Source: Psychroflexus halocasei (lineage in GTDB: Bacteria; Bacteroidota; Bacteroidia; Flavobacteriales; Flavobacteriaceae). From it: DNA of 64,000 nt. Numbering within the stretch: the first letter of the stretch is position 1; each line of letters begins with the position of its first letter. A program made the translations under genes and the position numbers. This document shows positions 25,751 to 51,251 of the stretch, piece by piece. The stretch is taken from NCBI RefSeq assembly GCF_900107595.1, contig NZ_FNQF01000006.1, positions 1 through 64,000 of the forward strand, read 5' to 3'. Below the pieces are notes generated by a model. The model did no database searches, was not told the origin of the DNA, and was given only the letters and a program-made list of their open reading frames with translations.

Positions 25751-26165
25751 ATTTTACAGTGAGAACAATTTCTCTTTAGATGAAAAAGAAAAGCATCAAA
25801 TTTGGATTGAAAACGTAATTAATTCTGAAGGCTTTAAGCTTGAAGAAATCACTTATATTTTTTGTGATGATAATTACCTTTTAAAGATTAATCAAGAGTT
25901 TTTAAAACATGATACTCTGACAGACATCATCACTTTTGACAATAGTTTTGGTCTGTCAGTTGCTGCTGAAATTTATATCAGTACAGAACGCGTTGATGAA
26001 AATGCGATTAAATTTGGTAATAAATTCACTGAAGAATTGAGAAGAGTGATGGTTCACGGCGTGCTTCATTGCATGAAAATCGATGACCATACAGATGAAG
26101 AGAAGCGCAAAATGCGCCAGAAAGAAAATGAAAAATTGCAAATGTTCCACGTGGAACAAAATTAA
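25743..26165 (+). CDS. ybeY: rRNA maturation RNase YbeY
   Basis: A 140-residue zinc endoribonuclease needed for 16S rRNA 3'-end maturation and ribosome quality control. The zinc motif is [12 protein letters not shown] (HGxLHxxGxDH variant, with Met-Lys in place of the usual Gly), near residues 103-114. The start overlaps DUF4175 by 8 bp. Its last codons (Met-Phe-His-Val-Glu-Gln-Asn, stop) are spelled by the parS palindrome at 26143-26158. mnmG follows 5 bp after the stop. Confidence 0.93.
26143..26158. promoter_or_regulatory. parS: parS site 1 (ParB-binding palindrome)
   Basis: TGTTCCACGTGGAACA is a perfect 16-bp palindrome that fits the conserved bacterial parS consensus TGTTnCACGTGnAACA. 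It is read through as the last six codons of ybeY. A second identical copy is at 28043. ParB loads here to start chromosome segregation. Confidence 0.85.
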
Positions 26166-26170
26166 AAAAG

Positions 26171-28042
26171 ATGTTTAACAAAGAGTACGATGTGATCGTT
26201 GTAGGTGGCGGACATGCAGGAAGCGAAGCAGCAGCAAGTGCTGCTAACATGGGTTGCAAAACATTATTAATCACAATGAATTTGCAAAACATAGCACAAA
26301 TGTCATGCAATCCAGCAATGGGAGGAATCGCAAAAGGACAAATATTAAGAGAGATTGATGCGATGGGCGGTTATAGCGGAATTGTTTCTGATACTAGCGC
26401 AATTCAATTCAAAATGCTTAACAAATCAAAAGGTCCAGCGATGTGGAGTCCACGAGTGCAAAGTGATAGAATGATGTTTGCAGAGCATTGGAGATTAAAA
26501 CTTGAGCAAACTAAAAATCTAGATTTTTATCAAGAAATGGTCAGCGGCTTAATTATAGAAAACAATAAGTTAATAGGAGTGAGAACATCATTGGGATTAG
26601 ATGTCAAAGCGAAAAGCGTGATCCTAACCAACGGAACTTTTTTAAATGGATTAATCCACATTGGAACCAAAAATTTCGGAGGAGGAAGAGCAGGAGAAAG
26701 AGCCTCAACTGGTATCACAAAAGATCTTATAGATTTAGGTTTTGAAGCTGGAAGAATGAAAACAGGAACGCCTCCAAGAGTTGATGGAAGATCTTTAGAT
26801 TTCTCTAAGATGATTGAACAGCCTGGCGATGAAATCCCTTCTAAATTTTCATTCTCAGATGAGACAAAACCTTTAATAAAACAGCGTTCTTGTCATATGA
26901 CTTATACTTCGCCAGAAGTACATGAATTATTAAGACAAGGTTTTGACAGATCACCAATGTTCAATGGTTCAATTGAGAGCACAGGGCCAAGATATTGTCC
27001 AAGCATTGAAGACAAAATACATAGATTTGCAGATAAAGATAGACATCAAATGTTCATAGAACCTGAAGGTTGGAACACAGTTGAATATTATGTGAACGGC
27101 TTCTCAACATCATTACCGGAAGATATTCAGTTCAAAGCTTTAAAATCAGTCAAAGGATTTGAGAATGTGAAATTTTTCAGACCTGGTTATGCAATTGAAT
27201 ACGATTATTTTCCACCAACACAGCTTAAGCATACTTTAGAAACAAAATTGATCGATAACTTATATTTCGCAGGACAAATAAATGGAACAACTGGTTACGA
27301 GGAAGCGGCTTCTCAAGGTATGATGGCAGGAATAAATGCTGCGCTTAAAATTCAAGAAAAAGAAGAATTTATTCTTCAAAGAAATGAAGCATATATAGGC
27401 GTTTTAATTGATGATTTAATAACAAAAGGAACAGAAGAACCTTATAGAATGTTTACATCAAGAGCTGAATACAGAACCTTATTACGACAAGATAATGCTG
27501 ATTTTAGATTGACAGAAAAAGCGTATCAAATAGGTTTAGCTTCTGAAGAAAGACTTCATAAAATGGAAAAGAAAAAGATTCAGTCAGAAAGATTTGTTGA
27601 ATTCTTTAAAAATACGAGTGTCACGACAGCAGAAATAAATCCGATTCTCGAAAAGAACAAGTCACAAAAAGTTGATCAACAAGGCAAGATGTTTAAAATT
27701 TTTGCACGTCCAAATATCACGATGGATGATATGCTTCAAATTGACAGTGTAAAAGATTATGTTGATAATCACGAATTAGATTCTGAAACATTAGAACAAG
27801 TCGAAATCCAAGTTAAATATTCAGGTTATATCGCTAAAGAAAAACAAAACGCAGATAAACTCAATCGCTTAGAAAACATCAAGATTCCGCAAAACTTTGA
27901 TTATTCACAATTAAAGTCAATGTCTTTTGAAGCTAGAGAAAAACTCAACGAAATTCAACCACGAACAGTGTCACAAGCCTCAAGAGTTTCAGGAGTCAAT
28001 CCGAGTGATATTTCAGTCTTGTTAGTTCACATGGGACGCTAA
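26171..28042 (+). CDS. mnmG: tRNA uridine-5-carboxymethylaminomethyl modification enzyme MnmG (GidA)
   Basis: A 623-residue FAD protein that works with MnmE to modify U34 of several tRNAs to cmnm5U. The FAD-binding Gly-Gly-Gly-His-Ala-Gly-Ser-Glu-Ala (about 12-20), Asn-Gly-Thr-Phe-Leu-Asn-Gly and Gly-Gly-Gly-Arg-Ala-Gly-Glu are visible, with [12 protein letters not shown] (about 368-380) and the C-terminal Gly-Val-Asn-Pro-Ser-Asp. It lies between two parS sites, a common position for gidA near the replication origin. Start ATG is 5 bp after the ybeY stop. Confidence 0.97.
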
Positions 28043-28058
28043 TGTTCCACGTGGAACA
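28043..28058. promoter_or_regulatory. parS: parS site 2 (ParB-binding palindrome)
   Basis: A second perfect copy of TGTTCCACGTGGAACA directly follows the mnmG stop codon, 1,900 bp from site 1. Two identical 16-mers bracketing one gene are not expected by chance. They mark this part as an origin-proximal ParB loading region. Confidence 0.85.
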
Positions 28059-39526: not shown

Positions 39527-41746
39527 TTAGTCGATCTGAATTTCATCAGCAGCTCCTAAAAGTTCAAAATCAATATTTCTTTTGATTAAGTCTGCTTTTT
39601 TAACACGTACATAAACTTCATCACCAAGTTGATACATTGTTTTTGTACGCTTACCAATTACAGCGTAATGCTCTTCATTAAAAAGATAATGATCACCAGG
39701 AATATCACGTAATCTGACCATTCCTTCACATTTGTTTTCAATAATTTCAACAAAAATACCAAAATCAGTTACACCACTTATCACTCCTAAAAATTCAGAA
39801 TCTTCATGATTTTGAATAAATTTAACCTGCATGTATTTAATAGAATCACGTTCAGCATTTGTTGCTAAATTCTCCATTTCGCTAGAATGTTTACATTTCA
39901 CTTCATAATCAGTTGCGCTAGCAGATTTTTGGCCATCAAGATAGTGTTGTAACAATCTGTGCGTCATCACATCTGGATAACGACGAATAGGAGAGGTGAA
40001 GTGAGAATAATAATCGAATGATAAACCGTAGTGACCTATATTTTCTGTAGAATAATAAGCTTTGCTCATCGTTCTAATAGTTAATGTGTCAACAAGGTTT
40101 TGTTCCTTTTTACCTTTAACATCTTCAAGAAGCTTATTTAAAGATTTGGAAACTTGCTTCTGATTTTTAAAATTTAATGAGTAACCAAATTTAGAAACGA
40201 CTGTGTTTAAAGTTTCTAATTTTTCTTCGTTAGGTTCATCATGACAACGATAAACAAAAGTCTTTTCAGGTTTTTGTTTACCAATAAATTCAGCAACTTT
40301 TCTGTTAGCTAAAAGCATAAACTCTTCAATCAATTTATTGGCATCTTCAGAAGTTTTAAAATAAACCCCTAGAGGGTTGTTGTCTTCATCAAGGTTAAAA
40401 TTGACTTCAACTTTATCAAAGGACAAAGCGCCTTTTTGCATGCGTTCATTTCGCATAATTTTAGCAAGCCTGTCAAGTTCCAGAGTTGCTTCAAGTATGT
40501 CGTCTGAAACAGGATAAGCTTTTTTAGTTAAAGAAACATCAGCAGGAATTGTTTTGTCTTTGGTCGTGATTAAATGTTGCGCTTCTTCATAAGCAAACCT
40601 TGCGTTAGATTCCGTCACAGTTCTACCAAACCATTCGTTGACAACTTTGGCGTTTTTATCAAGTTCGAAAACAGCTGAAAAAGTATATTTTTCTTCGTTT
40701 GGACGAAGTGAACACGCATTATTAGATAGAATTTCTGGTAGCATCGGAACAACACGATCGACTAAATAAATAGATGTTGCACGGTTGTAAGCTTCTTCAT
40801 CTAAAATAGTATCAGGTTGTAAATAGTGTGAAACATCAGCGATGTGAACACCAACTTCAAAATTTCCGTTTTCTAATTTCTGAAAACTCAGAGCATCATC
40901 AAAATCTTTAGCCGAGGCTGGATCGATTGTAAAAGTCAAAACATCACGCATGTCACGACGTTTCTTAATTTCTTTTTCTGAAATTTTCGTATCGATTTGG
41001 TTTGCGTATTCTTCAACTTCAGCTGAAAAATGCTCTGGCAAATTATATTCAGCTAAAATAGCGTGCATTTCAGTATTATGTTCACCAGGAACACCTAAGA
41101 CTTCGACGATTTCACCATTAGGTGAATCAGAATTTTTGGACCATTTCGTCAATCGAACTTTAACCATTAAACCATCGTCTGCCCCATTAAAATCATCTTT
41201 TGAGACAAAGATGTCTGTGTACATTTTAGGATTCTGGACAACGACAAATCCAAATTTTTCTTGTTTTTGAAGCACTCCAATGTATTCATCTTTAAAACGT
41301 TCAATGATGGAAGTGACTTCTCCTTCGGATTTCTTTTCACGCTTTTTAAACACGAAAATCTCAACTTGATCGCCATCTAAAGCGTGATTAAGATTCTTAT
41401 TTTCAACAAAAATGTCATCATCAAGTTCTTCAACGACAACATAAGCATCGCCACGTGTGGTCATATCAACTTTACCAGTAAAAATTGAATCAGCGGTGTT
41501 GAATTTGAAATGATATTCGTCCTTTTGAATCAACTCATTTTTAGCAGTCATTTGTCCTAATAATCTGATCAAACGATTTCTGGTCTTCGTGTCTTTCAAC
41601 TCTAAAATTTCGGCAATTTGCTTAAAAGTGTATGTTTTATCTTTATTCTTTTGAAAAACTTCTAAGACTCTTTTCTTAAAATTTATGTTGGGTTGGCGTC
41701 TTTTGCCTTTATTTTTTTTTGTTTTACTCTTTTTGTTTTTACTCAT
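39527..41746 (-). CDS. rnr: Ribonuclease R (3'-5' exoribonuclease)
   Basis: A 739-residue processive exonuclease that degrades structured RNA. Order of domains: a Lys/Arg-rich N-terminal tail (1-25), winged helix (about 25-85), cold-shock OB folds (about 85-240), the RNB catalytic domain starting near 260 with Ile-Asp-Pro-Ala-Ser-Ala-Lys-Asp-Phe-Asp-Asp-Ala (the four Asp magnesium ligands), and an S1 domain from about 640 (Phe-Leu-Gly-Val-Ile-Ser-Gly-Val-Thr-Asp-Phe-Gly-Ile-Phe-Val). It is the last core gene on the minus strand before the oriC candidate, read away from the origin. Confidence 0.96.
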   Translation of the reverse strand: MSKNKKSKTKKNKGKRRQPNINFKKRVLEVFQKNKDKTYTFKQIAEILELKDTKTRNRLIRLLGQMTAKNELIQKDEYHFKFNTADSIFTGKVDMTTRGDAYVVVEELDDDIFVENKNLNHALDGDQVEIFVFKKREKKSEGEVTSIIERFKDEYIGVLQKQEKFGFVVVQNPKMYTDIFVSKDDFNGADDGLMVKVRLTKWSKNSDSPNGEIVEVLGVPGEHNTEMHAILAEYNLPEHFSAEVEEYANQIDTKISEKEIKKRRDMRDVLTFTIDPASAKDFDDALSFQKLENGNFEVGVHIADVSHYLQPDTILDEEAYNRATSIYLVDRVVPMLPEILSNNACSLRPNEEKYTFSAVFELDKNAKVVNEWFGRTVTESNARFAYEEAQHLITTKDKTIPADVSLTKKAYPVSDDILEATLELDRLAKIMRNERMQKGALSFDKVEVNFNLDEDNNPLGVYFKTSEDANKLIEEFMLLANRKVAEFIGKQKPEKTFVYRCHDEPNEEKLETLNTVVSKFGYSLNFKNQKQVSKSLNKLLEDVKGKKEQNLVDTLTIRTMSKAYYSTENIGHYGLSFDYYSHFTSPIRRYPDVMTHRLLQHYLDGQKSASATDYEVKCKHSSEMENLATNAERDSIKYMQVKFIQNHEDSEFLGVISGVTDFGIFVEIIENKCEGMVRLRDIPGDHYLFNEEHYAVIGKRTKTMYQLGDEVYVRVKKADLIKRNIDFELLGAADEIQID

Positions 41747-42137: not shown

Positions 42138-42380
42138 ATGCTAAATTACATTAAAATTGCGACGTTCACTTATGCGCATGAATACAGCATTCTGCAACAT
42201 TTGTTAGAGCAAGAATCCATTCGATTTTATTTTCAAAACGAAACAGTTTTAGGCGTCTTGCCTTTTTACTCAAACGCAATGGGTGGTATTTTCCTTAAAG
42301 TGCATCCAGAAGATGTTTTAGAAGCTAAGGAGATTATAGAACGGTACAAATCTAAGTCAAATTTAGATATCATCGAGTAA
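42138..42380 (+). CDS. DUF2007 putative signal-transducing protein
   Basis: An 80-residue protein of the small PII-like DUF2007 fold. Typical are the N-terminal strand Ile-Ala-Thr-Phe-Thr-Tyr-Ala-His-Glu, a helix Ile-Leu-Gln-His-Leu-Leu-Glu, and Gly-Gly-Ile-Phe-Leu-Lys-Val (about 50-56) followed by a helix. Predicted to bind a nucleotide or protein partner by analogy only. It borders the oriC candidate, and its stop codon is the left edge of the gene-free stretch. Confidence 0.82.
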   Translation: MLNYIKIATFTYAHEYSILQHLLEQESIRFYFQNETVLGVLPFYSNAMGGIFLKVHPEDVLEAKEIIERYKSKSNLDIIE

Positions 42381-42982
42381 TTTTCTTTTCAAATTTGATT
42401 TTAAGAAATTTCTAGAGATCAGACTTCTTTTACTTTTCTTTACACTTATCAACAACTTATATATAATTATTTTTCTTCTTTAAATTTTTAAAAAACTAAA
42501 TAGTGATGATTATTGCGTGTTGAAATCCTTATAATTCATTTGCTATTTATTTTGTTTTTTCAATTCTTCATTTATAGGATGACATTTATTAATAAAATGT
42601 TAATATCTTCTTGTTGATTTTGAATGCTTTAGATGAATTTATCAACAAATAGGCTTTTTGATTTTAGATGTTTTTGTTAGAAAATTTCAGCTTGAAAGCT
42701 GTTGATAAACTGTCAATAACTGCTGAAAACTTTTTACTAAATACATGAGTTATCATTTGCTTTTGAAGAAAAAAATTGCTGATAGAATTCTATTTCATTT
42801 ATCAAAAGAATCTTATTGTTTTTTACTTTAAAGTTATTCACAGTCTTGTTGAAAGTTAACTGCTTGAAAATCAATCTTCGTTATTGAGTTATTCACAGCT
42901 TATTTTTATATTATTTAATAATTTGATAATCAATTATTTAAACTGTTTATTTGTTCATCTTTATAGATATTATGATTCGTGG
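42381..42982. other. Candidate chromosomal replication origin (oriC)
   Basis: A 600-bp stretch with no supported gene, extremely AT-rich. Five DnaA-box-like 9-mers: TTATCAACA at 42446-42454 and 42639-42647 (+), its complement TGTTGATAA at 42700-42708 (-), and TTATTCACA at 42834-42842 and 42889-42897 (+). AT-rich tracts around 42900-42960 could be the unwinding element. The gene-free stretch separates rnr (minus) from a plus-strand gene run, and parS sites and rnpA lie 10-16 kb to the left. DnaA itself is not in the window, which is common in this phylum. This is inference from the motif density and position. Confidence 0.65.
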
Positions 42983-43011
42983 TTGATTATAAATATAACT
43001 TCGTATTTTTG
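42983..43011 (+). promoter_or_regulatory. Promoter of rpiB
   Basis: TTG at 42983-42985 and TATTTTTG at 43004-43011 are spaced by 18 bp, the best match in the window to the Bacteroidota -33/-7 promoter. It lies 25 bp upstream of the rpiB ATG. Confidence 0.6.
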
Positions 43012-43035
43012 TCTAACAACATAAAACAAAACAAC

Positions 43036-43467
43036 ATGACAATTGCAATTGGTAATGATCACGCAGGAACAACTTATAAAAATGAAGTTGTCACATATCT
43101 TGAAAAACAAGGGATAAAAGTTATTAATCACGGAACAAATAGTGATGACAGTGTCGATTATCCTGATTTTGTTCATCCTGTTGCTTCAGATGTGAGCAAC
43201 AAAAAAGCTGATTTCGGCATCATTATTTGTGGTAGCGGAAATGGTGCAAATATGACAGCAAATAAACACCAAGATATCAGATCAGCTTTATGTTGGAATA
43301 AAGAAATTGTTGCTTTAGCGAGACAACATAACAATGCCAATGTGTTGAGCATTCCGGCAAGATTTGTTTCAGAAAATCAAGCCATTGACTTTGTCAAAGT
43401 TTTTTTAGAAACAGATTTTGAAGGCGGCCGTCACCAAAATCGTGTTGACAAAATCGCTTGCCAATAA
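43036..43467 (+). CDS. rpiB: Ribose 5-phosphate isomerase B
   Basis: A 143-residue RpiB/LacAB family isomerase converting ribulose 5-phosphate and ribose 5-phosphate. N-terminal Ile-Ala-Ile-Gly-Asn-Asp-His-Ala-Gly (residues 3-11) carries the conserved Asp-His, and Ile-Ile-Cys-Gly-Ser-Gly-Asn-Gly (about 64-71) holds the catalytic Cys. The final Arg-His-Gln-Asn-Arg-Val-Asp is the phosphate-binding tail. I use the ATG at 43036, 19 codons after an earlier ATG that lies upstream of the promoter-like element's transcription start. First gene right of oriC. Confidence 0.95.
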   Translation: MTIAIGNDHAGTTYKNEVVTYLEKQGIKVINHGTNSDDSVDYPDFVHPVASDVSNKKADFGIIICGSGNGANMTANKHQDIRSALCWNKEIVALARQHNNANVLSIPARFVSENQAIDFVKVFLETDFEGGRHQNRVDKIACQ

Positions 43468-48986: not shown

Positions 48987-49541
48987 TTATTCTAAAATTA
49001 GATCTCCCTTATACTCAAATGAAAAATTCTTCCCAGTAGTTGTAATTCCTTCAAACGAAAACACATAATCTCCTTCATCTTTAGAAACGTGCAGAGTTCC
49101 AGATTTTAAAGTTTCACTGTTGCTACTTGCATCATCAGATCTGATAATGAAACCAGATCCAAAATATGTAAATATTCGAGGATCAGTATACGGCTCGTCA
49201 TTTTGATTATATGAACCTACAGACACATCAGCAAAACTACTAGAAACTATTTGAAAAGTAATCATAGAAAAATCGAAGTCTTCTGGAATAATGTTTCCAT
49301 TCTCCTGCTTTAGTTCTGTTGTGAAAAATTTAAGGTAATTATTATAGAGTCCATTCTCCTCAGGTTCATCCTCGTAAGGTTCAAGAACAGCCGATCTTAA
49401 ATCTTGAACTACGCCACCCTCTACCTGTAGAGAGCCTTTAGCAAGTGTAGTATTATCAGTAGCTTCATCATCACTAGTGCTGCATGAAATTAAAAAAATT
49501 GTAATGCAAGCATAAAATAACCTCGAATAAACATTTTTCAT
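48987..49541 (-). CDS. Putative surface-exposed lipoprotein
   Basis: A 184-residue protein with a type II signal peptide (Phe-Leu-Ile-Ser-Cys, Cys20). The mature N-terminus Cys-Ser-Thr-Ser-Asp-Asp-Glu resembles the acidic lipoprotein export signal (SDDFE-like) that Flavobacteria use to send lipoproteins to the outer surface; that is inference. The rest is beta-rich, with no family I know. It lies in the accessory island between a decayed regulator and an IS remnant. Confidence 0.68.
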   Translation of the reverse strand: MKNVYSRLFYACITIFLISCSTSDDEATDNTTLAKGSLQVEGGVVQDLRSAVLEPYEDEPEENGLYNNYLKFFTTELKQENGNIIPEDFDFSMITFQIVSSSFADVSVGSYNQNDEPYTDPRIFTYFGSGFIIRSDDASSNSETLKSGTLHVSKDEGDYVFSFEGITTTGKNFSFEYKGDLILE

Positions 49542-50372
49542 TTCTAATATTTTAAATTTTTAATTTGCGAATGTAACCAAACCAAAATAAATGGTTATGC
49601 TATTTGTTTAAAATTCTTAAATGTCATAATTCGTCCCATCCCTGAATAGAACAAGGTTATAGTTTATAATTGCGTTGTTATTAATTTTTCATAGTAGGAC
49701 TGGATTTCAGCAAAATGCTTTAGAAGCCCTGAGCCCATTGTCTGCTGTATAAAGACAATAAGGTTGCCTCATCTTGGTTTTATCTTTTCTTTTAGCAAAT
49801 GGCAGTTCAAGTATTGCTGTAGGTATTTGGTTGAGACGCTCCAGAAGGTGCTGTCAATCCATTTTTTAATCCTGTTATGCGTTGAATTTAAATGCTGGAC
49901 GTGAAATGCACCCCCTGACTCTTTCGGCCTTGGAAACATTTATAGGGCAAAATCCTACTTCGGCATCTTTGGCGAAGCCCTTGCAATTATGGTGGGAGTC
50001 ACTGCATTCCAATGGCCTGGTCAATTTCGTTTTTTCCTATCCGTCCATGAATGGCCACGCCATGCTAAGGTCAATCCCGGACTTCCTGACCTGGGTAGCG
50101 ATAACTGTTATTAAGGTGGGAACAGTGTGGGCACACTCCCAGCTTGTTGTCGAACTCGTGCCGGTGTGAGGCTTTAGCGGCAAAATCAGGACATTTTGAT
50201 GAAACCTTCGATTTCCTTCAATAAACGCTCATGCTGGGAACCGGCAGTGAAAGAATTTATTCTTTTATCTTTTTTATTCTAAAGCTAAATCAAAAAGATT
50301 AGGCGGTGTCCGCAATCAAACTCAGACATTTAAGCCAACATTACTGATATTCACTGTTGGCAAATATTTTTT
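49542..50372. other. Gene-poor stretch with transposon debris
   Basis: 830 bp between the lipoprotein gene and the Doc-like gene. It holds the IS1595 remnant described below (49769 to about 50200). Outside it I see only AT-rich spacer and no intact gene. The part 49880-50170 is visibly GC-richer than its surroundings. Confidence 0.6.
49769..50200 (-). mobile_element. IS1595-type transposase remnant, frameshifted
   Basis: On the minus strand, parts of an IS1595-family transposase can be followed across several frames: a block Gly-Arg-Ile-Gly-Lys-Asn-Glu-Ile-Asp-Gln-Ala-Ile-Gly, then Ser-Asp-Ser-His-His-Asn-Cys-Lys-Gly-Phe-Ala-Lys-Asp (the DSH catalytic-type motif), and finally Phe-His-Val-Gln-His-Leu-Asn-Ser-Thr-His-Asn-Arg with Val-Ser-Thr-Lys-Tyr-Leu-Gln-Gln-Tyr-Leu-Asn, ended by a stop at 49769-49771. 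At least two frameshifts are needed. I found no terminal inverted repeats, so the ends are lost or unclear. The GC content of about half, versus one third around, points to outside origin. Confidence 0.7.
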
Positions 50373-51251
50373 CTACGTTTTTGAAAGTCTATAAATTAGT
50401 TTTTTAAATGTTTTTATTTCAAAATCCAAAAAAGAGTCTTCGTTATAAAAGAATGTATTATCAACTCCATCAGCTTTTGTTAATTTGAAATCTCTTCTTA
50501 AAGCCTTTAATGTTCCTTTACCTATCGAAGATCTATTATTTCCTATAGAGTATTTCTTTTTATTCACAATTTTTGGAGACAATTTAAAACCTAAAAATTT
50601 ATTTTCTTTTTCGATGTAAACTTCTAGGTTAGATCCATTTAAATTTAATTTAATGCCTTTATTTACAAGTATTTTTTTTAAATCGGATATTTTCACTTCT
50701 CCTTTAAGAGTAGTCTGTTTTGGTTTTGAGTTTTTTTTAATCCAAAAGCCTATATACCTAATAACTGTATTTAATTCCCAATTTTCATTATTTTTCTTTT
50801 CAGTTTTAGATCTAATAAAAGAATACTTTTTTCTATACTTTTTGCTGAAACCCCTGATATTAGAGTCAGCAATTGCAATAAGAAACTCGTATATTTCATC
50901 AGAGTTAAGCTGGGGATTTAAAACATAACCATTAACATATAAATGTTTAATCAACGCCAACAATCCAGCTCTTTTATTTCCATTATGGAAAGAATGATTT
51001 TTTATAATTCCATAAACAAGTGTGGCACAATTTGAATGATAATCGGGGTATTTATTAAAATCTCCAAAACCGGTGTTTTGGCGTTCTACTGCACTTTCCA
51101 ACATTCCTTCGTTTTTAACACCTGGTGGTTCAACCGGATCCATTTCTTCAAGGAGATGAGTGCTCTGAGATAATAAGTTGTGTAAATCTATTATACATTC
51201 TTTGTTTAAAGTATATACTTTGCCATTTTGGCTTTTAAAACTACTGATCAT
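50373..51251 (-). CDS. Doc-like Fic-fold protein with C-terminal extension
   Basis: A 292-residue protein. Residues 1-130 are a Doc (death-on-curing) type Fic domain: Ala-Val-Glu-Arg-Gln-Asn-Thr-Gly-Phe (about 54-62) and the catalytic loop His86-Ser-Phe-His-Asn-Gly91-Asn-Lys-Arg94. Doc has the Lys in HxFxxGNKR and phosphorylates EF-Tu; AMPylating Fic proteins have Gly-Arg. The C-terminal 160 residues are Lys-rich with Leu-Lys-Lys-Ile-Leu-Val-Asn-Lys-Gly-Ile-Lys-Leu and no known match. No phd-like antitoxin is adjacent, upstream or downstream. It may be self-regulated, or an orphan. Confidence 0.7.
   Translation of the reverse strand: MISSFKSQNGKVYTLNKECIIDLHNLLSQSTHLLEEMDPVEPPGVKNEGMLESAVERQNTGFGDFNKYPDYHSNCATLVYGIIKNHSFHNGNKRAGLLALIKHLYVNGYVLNPQLNSDEIYEFLIAIADSNIRGFSKKYRKKYSFIRSKTEKKNNENWELNTVIRYIGFWIKKNSKPKQTTLKGEVKISDLKKILVNKGIKLNLNGSNLEVYIEKENKFLGFKLSPKIVNKKKYSIGNNRSSIGKGTLKALRRDFKLTKADGVDNTFFYNEDSFLDFEIKTFKKLIYRLSKT

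Follow-up and report, generated by a model that had tools for sequence, protein, structure and literature searches.

A probable chromosomal replication origin upstream of rpiB in Psychroflexus halocasei

The stretch between the DUF2007 gene and rpiB

The genome of Psychroflexus halocasei is available as a 2.67-Mb draft in 43 contigs. The window, i.e. the whole stretch of DNA that was analyzed, comprises the initial 64 kb of the 188,842-bp contig C29. The feature described here is a gene-free stretch of 655 bp between the end of a DUF2007 gene at position 42380 and the ATG of rpiB at position 43036 (Table 1). An earlier note, made from the sequence alone, had proposed this gap as a candidate oriC. 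The note described the gap as very AT-rich and as dividing rnr on the minus strand from a run of plus-strand genes; both points agree with the measured composition (22% GC, 78% AT over the 655 bp) and with the gene positions, rpiB opening the plus-strand run. The gap itself is real. It is not clearly the largest clean gene gap in the core part of the window, as the note had called it, because about 831 bp separate open reading frames of 100 or more residues at 49541-50373, an interval that contains an open reading frame of 95 residues. Scanning the window for Rfam families and for tRNAs produced no matches.

Table 1. Features of the putative origin and its surroundings (window coordinates)
Feature	Position	Strand	Remarks
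parS-like site, left of mnmG	26144..26157		exact GTTCCACGTGGAAC
parS-like site, right of mnmG	28044..28057		exact GTTCCACGTGGAAC
rnr	39527..41746	-	Pfam RNB
DUF2007 gene, left neighbor	42138..42380	+	Pfam DUF2007, E 5.7e-5, 23.6 bits, slightly below the cut-off of 25.7
Putative oriC, gene-free stretch	42381..43035		655 bp, 22% GC, five DnaA-like boxes, conserved array
DnaA box 1, TTATCAACA	42446..42454	+	top-conserved 9-column block, 14-genome alignment
AT-rich tract, likely DNA-unwinding element (by composition and conservation)	42455..42517		between box 1 and weak inverted box; 23-genome alignment and family-wide R1 matches
Weak inverted DnaA-box-like site	42518..42526	-	minus strand reads ATTTCAACA
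Place of box 2	42572..42581	+	present in 11 of 14 genomes sharing the spacing, lost in window
DnaA box 3, TTATCAACA	42639..42647	+	9-mer scan and alignment
DnaA box 4, inverted, TTATCAACA	42700..42708	-	9-mer scan and alignment
DnaA box 5, TTATTCACA	42834..42842	+	9-mer scan and alignment
DnaA box 6, TTATTCACA, 55 bp from box 5	42889..42897	+	9-mer scan and alignment
rpiB, right neighbor	43036..43467	+	Pfam LacAB_rpiB

DnaA boxes were defined as 9-mers with at most one mismatch to TTATCCACA. The gap holds exactly five of them, three of one form and two of another with one of the three inverted, all as the earlier note had listed them. There are 24 such 9-mers across the 64 kb, and the gap is their densest 650-bp cluster. 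Of 2000 sequences simulated from the gap with a second-order Markov model, none reached five boxes, the mean being 0.15. The boxes of the gap are TTATCAACA and TTATTCACA rather than the Escherichia coli form, which several relatives carry. DnaA-trios were counted as runs of at least three NAN trios that come no farther than 16 bp from a box, a pattern that T-rich tracts fit easily. The longest run in the window is 6, compared to a shuffle mean of 3.7, and 11% of the shuffles reach 6; over 23 genomes the mean run is 5.8 versus 3.9, with the same ease of fit for T-rich tracts.

Two parS-like palindromes lie 1,900 bp apart on both sides of mnmG (window 26144-28057), about 14-16 kb from the gap on its left, where the earlier note had placed two parS sites together with mnmG. 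Only one of 100 shuffles of the window has two or more such sites when one mismatch is allowed. The number of parS sites per genome is two, about 1.9 kb apart, in 24 of 27 genomes of the genus, one in G015, none in G017 and four in G022. In the last genome, which has 4% contamination and no rpiB match, contigs C201 and C211 each carry one pair 1,900 bp apart, possibly reflecting a mixed or duplicated assembly.

Conservation of the box array in Psychroflexus

The gene rpiB was found in 26 of the 27 Psychroflexus genomes. The earlier note had made its reading depend on conservation of the 9-mers in relatives, and at 14 of the 26 loci the same array, whole or partial, is indeed kept upstream of rpiB in both place and spacing. 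The boxes are located at about -584, -457, -390, -329 (inverted), -195 and -142 relative to the rpiB start codon. The intervals of 127/67/61/134/53 bp are nearly fixed among the 14. The window holds positions 1, 3, 4, 5 and 6. Eleven of the 14 have box 2, which is absent from the window, G011 and G018; in the latter two genomes positions 5 and 6 carry the variant TTATTAACA and box 4 is not clear. When the 14 genomes are aligned, the five most informative blocks coincide with the five boxes of the window, while the place of the lost box 2 comes 13th.

The weak inverted site that faces box 1 across the AT-rich tract reads, for example, TTATTAACA, TTATCAACA or TTATACACG in some relatives. Three columns of this site, a G, a T and an A, are invariant in 23 genomes. 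A conserved block that is not itself a box (window 42513-42535, consensus TTGCTCGTGTATAACTGGAAAAC) lies to the right of the AT-rich tract and overlaps the weak inverted site. It has diverged in the window, and of its pieces, CGTGTATAACT is exact in 7 of the 14 genomes and AACTGGAAAAC in 8. The block may be a site for another origin-binding protein.

The other 12 loci are more varied. G005, G019, G021, G023 and G024 have groups of boxes near rpiB with different spacing. No array was found within 1.5 kb of rpiB in G008, G010, G012, G014 and G020, which have at most two single 9-mers there, and the rpiB loci of G016 and G017 end at contig ends with 128 and 872 bp of upstream DNA. Besides the spacing common to the 14 genomes, a second type of about 128/53-55/63/134 was found in G010 and G012 and, for the most part, in G020 and G008, and a third of about 72/67/53 in G005, G019 and G016. 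Searches upstream of rpiB and with a pattern made of the box 5-6 pair found no array in G014, G017 (52% complete) or G022, which has no rpiB match.

The pair pattern located arrays away from rpiB in G008, G010, G012 and G020. In G016 the array is on a 4-kb contig and could still adjoin rpiB across the contig break. The pattern has chance matches: its backward control hits 3 of the 27 genomes, and matches off the arrays occur in G004 and G017, once in G018 and twice in G024. In G010 (contig C5) and G012 (contig C7) the array lies beside DUF2007-rnr, and rpiB is on the same contig 165 and 98 kb away, respectively; the 1.5 kb upstream of the separated gene contain no boxes. Conversely, in G011 and G018 the array lies beside rpiB and neither DUF2007 nor rnr is present in the stretch searched. 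The array thus stays when either rpiB or DUF2007-rnr leaves, and neither neighbor explains it. Judged by these arrangements, the array is an element of its own and not the promoter of one gene.

G018 also has a second cluster of boxes (L121, G018:C1:520001-540000, offset about 10514), with four boxes of at most one mismatch inside 650 bp; its distance from the putative origin is about 600 kb. It is possible that this cluster is a titration or control site.

A module found throughout the family

A sequence-only profile, R1, was made of the 106 positions that include box 1, the AT-rich tract and the weak inverted box, using an alignment of 23 of the 27 genus genomes. Its E-values are rough, owing to a shortened calibration. 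In the P. halocasei genome R1 finds this place with an E-value of 2.5e-13 and the reverse strand of the same place with 0.002; the next other place has an E-value of 0.12, leaving one place at E ≤ 0.01. The module is single-copy in this genome, and the statement is confined to it. R1 has 1-4 matches per family genome and, among the matches listed, a second match in a genome is always the opposite strand of the same place.

Outside the genus, 66 of 80 public rpiB loci were searched; five of the others are from Psychroflexus or from a genus-genome record, and nine have less than 1.8 kb of upstream sequence. R1 matched 61 of the 66 at E ≤ 0.01. Fifty-six of these matches are 450-700 bp before rpiB, the median distance being 529 bp compared to 597 bp in the window. 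The misses are L079 (E 0.013), L105 (E 0.16), L104, L112 and L115. Among 149 family genomes, at least 95% complete and drawn evenly at about one per genus, 139 have a match at E ≤ 0.01 (137 of 147 without the two genomes from the training genus) and 10 have none at this threshold. In the class as a whole, 20 of 246 genomes match at E ≤ 0.001, eight of them from the same family, in a search whose stricter filters lose weak matches. Since R1 is rare across the class, the module as modeled is largely a family trait.

Five box 9-mers were also counted, independently of R1. In the 700 bp preceding rpiB at 64 loci outside the genus their mean number is 2.0, and it is 0.12 in 817 control windows from the same loci, which are mostly coding and less AT-rich. 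At least one of the 9-mers is present upstream of rpiB at 56 of the 64 loci. Compared to composition-matched simulations of the 64 loci, TTATCAACA is found at 29 versus 2.3 expected, TTATTAACA at 41 versus 6.6 and TTATCCACA at 11 versus 0.4, whereas TTTTCCACA and TTATACACA show no enrichment upstream of rpiB there.

Position on the chromosome

Distances along the chromosome were taken from the 27 single-contig genomes of the family that R1 matches; G044 and G141, which are single-contig and have no match, were left out. The parS pattern is present in 26 of the 27, G126 having none, and in all 26 the nearest parS site is 5-55 kb from the module (median 18 kb). Of 55 parS sites, 54 are within 65 kb of the module, the exception being one site in G104. 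Among the Psychroflexus genomes, G018 has parS at a distance of 16-18 kb from rpiB, and G025 at 11-12 kb.

The gene dnaA is not in the window, as the earlier note had observed; it is on another contig, C26. Around dnaA there is no cluster of boxes, only zero to three scattered 9-mers, in this genome and in six relatives. In all 27 single-contig genomes, which are from other genera, dnaA is 775 kb to 2.0 Mb from the module, or 0.19-0.47 of the chromosome. Chromosome sizes are known to 0.1 Mb, so that distances across the record end (e.g. in G046 and G104) are rough. Within the genus, dnaA and rpiB are separated by 1.13 Mb in G018 and 1.40 Mb in G025, and by 190 kb in G005 and 238 kb in G019. 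The short distances in the last two genomes imply that the remoteness of dnaA is usual, not universal. A gene-dosage effect or an effect of inherited position on the initiator gene is possible.

The earlier note had expected the GC-skew minimum of the full chromosome near 42.6 kb of the window. The cumulative skew of the window itself has only a local low at 40-42 kb. Because the P. halocasei assembly is split into 43 contigs, the checks that the note had proposed were carried over to relatives where possible. In the genus the raw GC skew and coding bias are weak, noisy and confounded by gene strand; therefore, the skew at third codon positions, corrected for gene strand, was used. It was read from sampled 20-kb stretches of three single-contig genus genomes, with small bootstraps (25-60 resamples). 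In G025, which we take to be P. torquis (4,321,832 bp), the corrected skew switches at 2.02-2.03 Mb and rpiB is at 2.014 Mb; the bootstrap (25 resamples) has a median of +0.004 of the chromosome and a lower tail reaching -0.30. In G018 the switch is at 0.94-1.04 Mb with 20 stretches (94-194 kb off) and at 1.10 Mb with 40 stretches, compared to rpiB at 1.134 Mb. In G019 the switch found with 20 stretches, at 1.46-1.92 Mb, is away from rpiB (2.395 Mb), and with 40 stretches the bootstrap ranges from -0.30 to +0.27 of the chromosome, which makes this genome uninformative rather than contrary. The corrected skew thus switches near the locus in G025 and, with 40 stretches, in G018, while the G019 bootstrap is too wide to place a switch.

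The nature of the element

The stretch 42381-43035 is very probably the chromosomal replication origin, as the earlier note had suggested. This reading is based on a box cluster beyond chance, boxes conserved at nearly fixed spacing, an array separable from its neighbors, a module found throughout the family, parS sites close to the module in single-contig genomes and the nearby skew switch in G025 and G018. Several observations count against it. With 20 stretches the switches in G018 and G019 are off the locus, and the G025 bootstrap has its lower tail; ten family genomes lack an R1 match, and G014, G017 and G022 yielded no array. The place at about 530.5 kb in the sampled DNA of G018 has four boxes with at most one mismatch, compared to three at the origin, and another place in the G019 origin stretch ties the array at three boxes.

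The array might instead be a DnaA-binding control site, either an array at the promoter of rpiB or of DUF2007, or a site that titrates DnaA, such as datA in E. coli. Boxes do occur upstream of rpiB in most of the relatives searched, and such groups can occur elsewhere, as in G018. However, the array outlives both neighbors, remaining in G010 and G012 without rpiB and in G011 and G018 without DUF2007-rnr, so that a promoter array of either gene was rejected. Furthermore, a control site fits poorly with a module that has one place in its own genome at E ≤ 0.01, that has parS nearby in 26 of 26 single-contig genomes and that lies near the skew switch in G025 and G018. A control function is therefore improbable. 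A titrating site close to the origin would be compatible with position alone and is covered by the same low estimate. Chance 9-mers might be expected in a gap that is 78% AT, yet neither the simulations nor the conservation across the family can be reconciled with them, and this explanation was rejected as having a negligible probability.

The origin might also be situated farther left by some 14-16 kb, at mnmG with its flanking parS sites, where Ori-Finder 2022 placed it in two papers on Flavobacteriaceae; the passages concerned put oriC adjacent to or at mnmG (PMC11278836, PMC12843772), and skew cannot resolve sites so close together. Three box-like 9-mers at 26652-27901 fall inside mnmG, however, and not in a gap; no intergenic box cluster was found beside mnmG. 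In the ten stretches that include both mnmG and the array, the array is the largest box cluster according to one motif set. Other motif sets give a tie with the array in G019 and put a different place, with four, at the top of the list in G024. An origin at mnmG is even less probable than a control site, and mnmG was rejected because its box-like 9-mers are intragenic and the array is the larger cluster by that one motif set.

Comparison with published origins

Origins distant from dnaA are already known in Bacteroidetes, and the origin proposed here is a further case with an unusually well-conserved core. According to a passage on Prevotella intermedia OMA14 (PMC4755523), such an oriC is common in Bacteroidetes and sits at the skew transition, and a passage on Elizabethkingia (PMC8994065) places the predicted origin far from that organism's dnaA. 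The present stretch resembles these Ori-Finder or DoriC predictions in that DnaA boxes cluster, in a gap or by prediction, at a site remote from dnaA. It differs from the origins in those passages by the homologous module found throughout the family and by the linkage to rpiB. Its boxes, TTATCAACA and TTATTCACA, are not of the E. coli form.

The text on Mariniflexile (PMC11278836) reports an Ori-Finder oriC at mnmG and a dnaA that did not fit the skew plot, although a figure legend of that paper labels mnmG as ter, contradicting its text. For Algorimicrobium the oriC predicted by Ori-Finder is adjacent to or at mnmG in the relevant passage (PMC12843772). Both organisms belong to the same family, judging by the titles and text of these papers, and their predicted origins are in the same broad region near mnmG; the element described here, in contrast, is separated by 14-16 kb from mnmG and from the parS sites there. 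Passages of PMC5219744 show a Flavobacteriaceae chromosome numbered from dnaA, and in PMC11278836 the first, automatic numbering also started from dnaA. The main text of Ori-Finder 2022 mentions neither rpiB nor mnmG, nor any term beginning with Bacteroid- or Flavobacter-; its indicator genes are in Table S2. No rpiB-linked origin and no family-wide origin module of Flavobacteriaceae was found in the literature, judged by title and start of abstract, and such entries may exist in DoriC or in subscription papers.

As in the basal origin-unwinding system described in PMC8287927, a box is followed directly by an AT tract. Unlike in that system, the trio-like runs in the window are not clearly above those of shuffles, and a weak inverted box closes the far side of the tract.

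Proposed mechanism and significance

The spaced boxes, whose sequence, conservation and phasing are described above, would be bound by DnaA, the product of the gene on contig C26. By analogy to the general bacterial mechanism, DnaA acting from box 1, and perhaps also from the weak inverted box that faces it, would open the AT-rich tract. The helicase would then be loaded at the opened tract, and forks would leave in both directions, as in the general scheme outlined in PMC8287927. Boxes 3-6, on the rpiB side, may hold further DnaA, with the loss of single boxes and changes in spacing apparently tolerated between lineages. ParB bound to the two parS sites at mnmG would mark or organize the origin region for segregation.

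Tentatively, and with more doubt than confidence, we suggest that the Flavobacteriaceae share one homologous origin-opening module. It would consist of an AT tract bounded on each side by a DnaA box, the two boxes facing each other, and would lie about 500 bp ahead of rpiB, recognizable in 138 of 148 sampled genera, with flanking boxes that turn over in sequence and spacing. If this is true, the origin could be marked with a single profile, in drafts as well, and opening might be guided from both sides of the tract by the facing boxes.

Going by the 27 single-contig genomes, the numbering of some Flavobacteriaceae chromosomes from dnaA would start far from the module. With the origin marked in drafts, replichores, growth rates (peak-to-trough) and gene dosage could be analyzed correctly in a major marine family. 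The stretch would also provide a short test fragment for oriC plasmids. The evolution of an origin could be traced base by base, through the loss of boxes, the different spacing types and the parting of the array from its neighbor genes.
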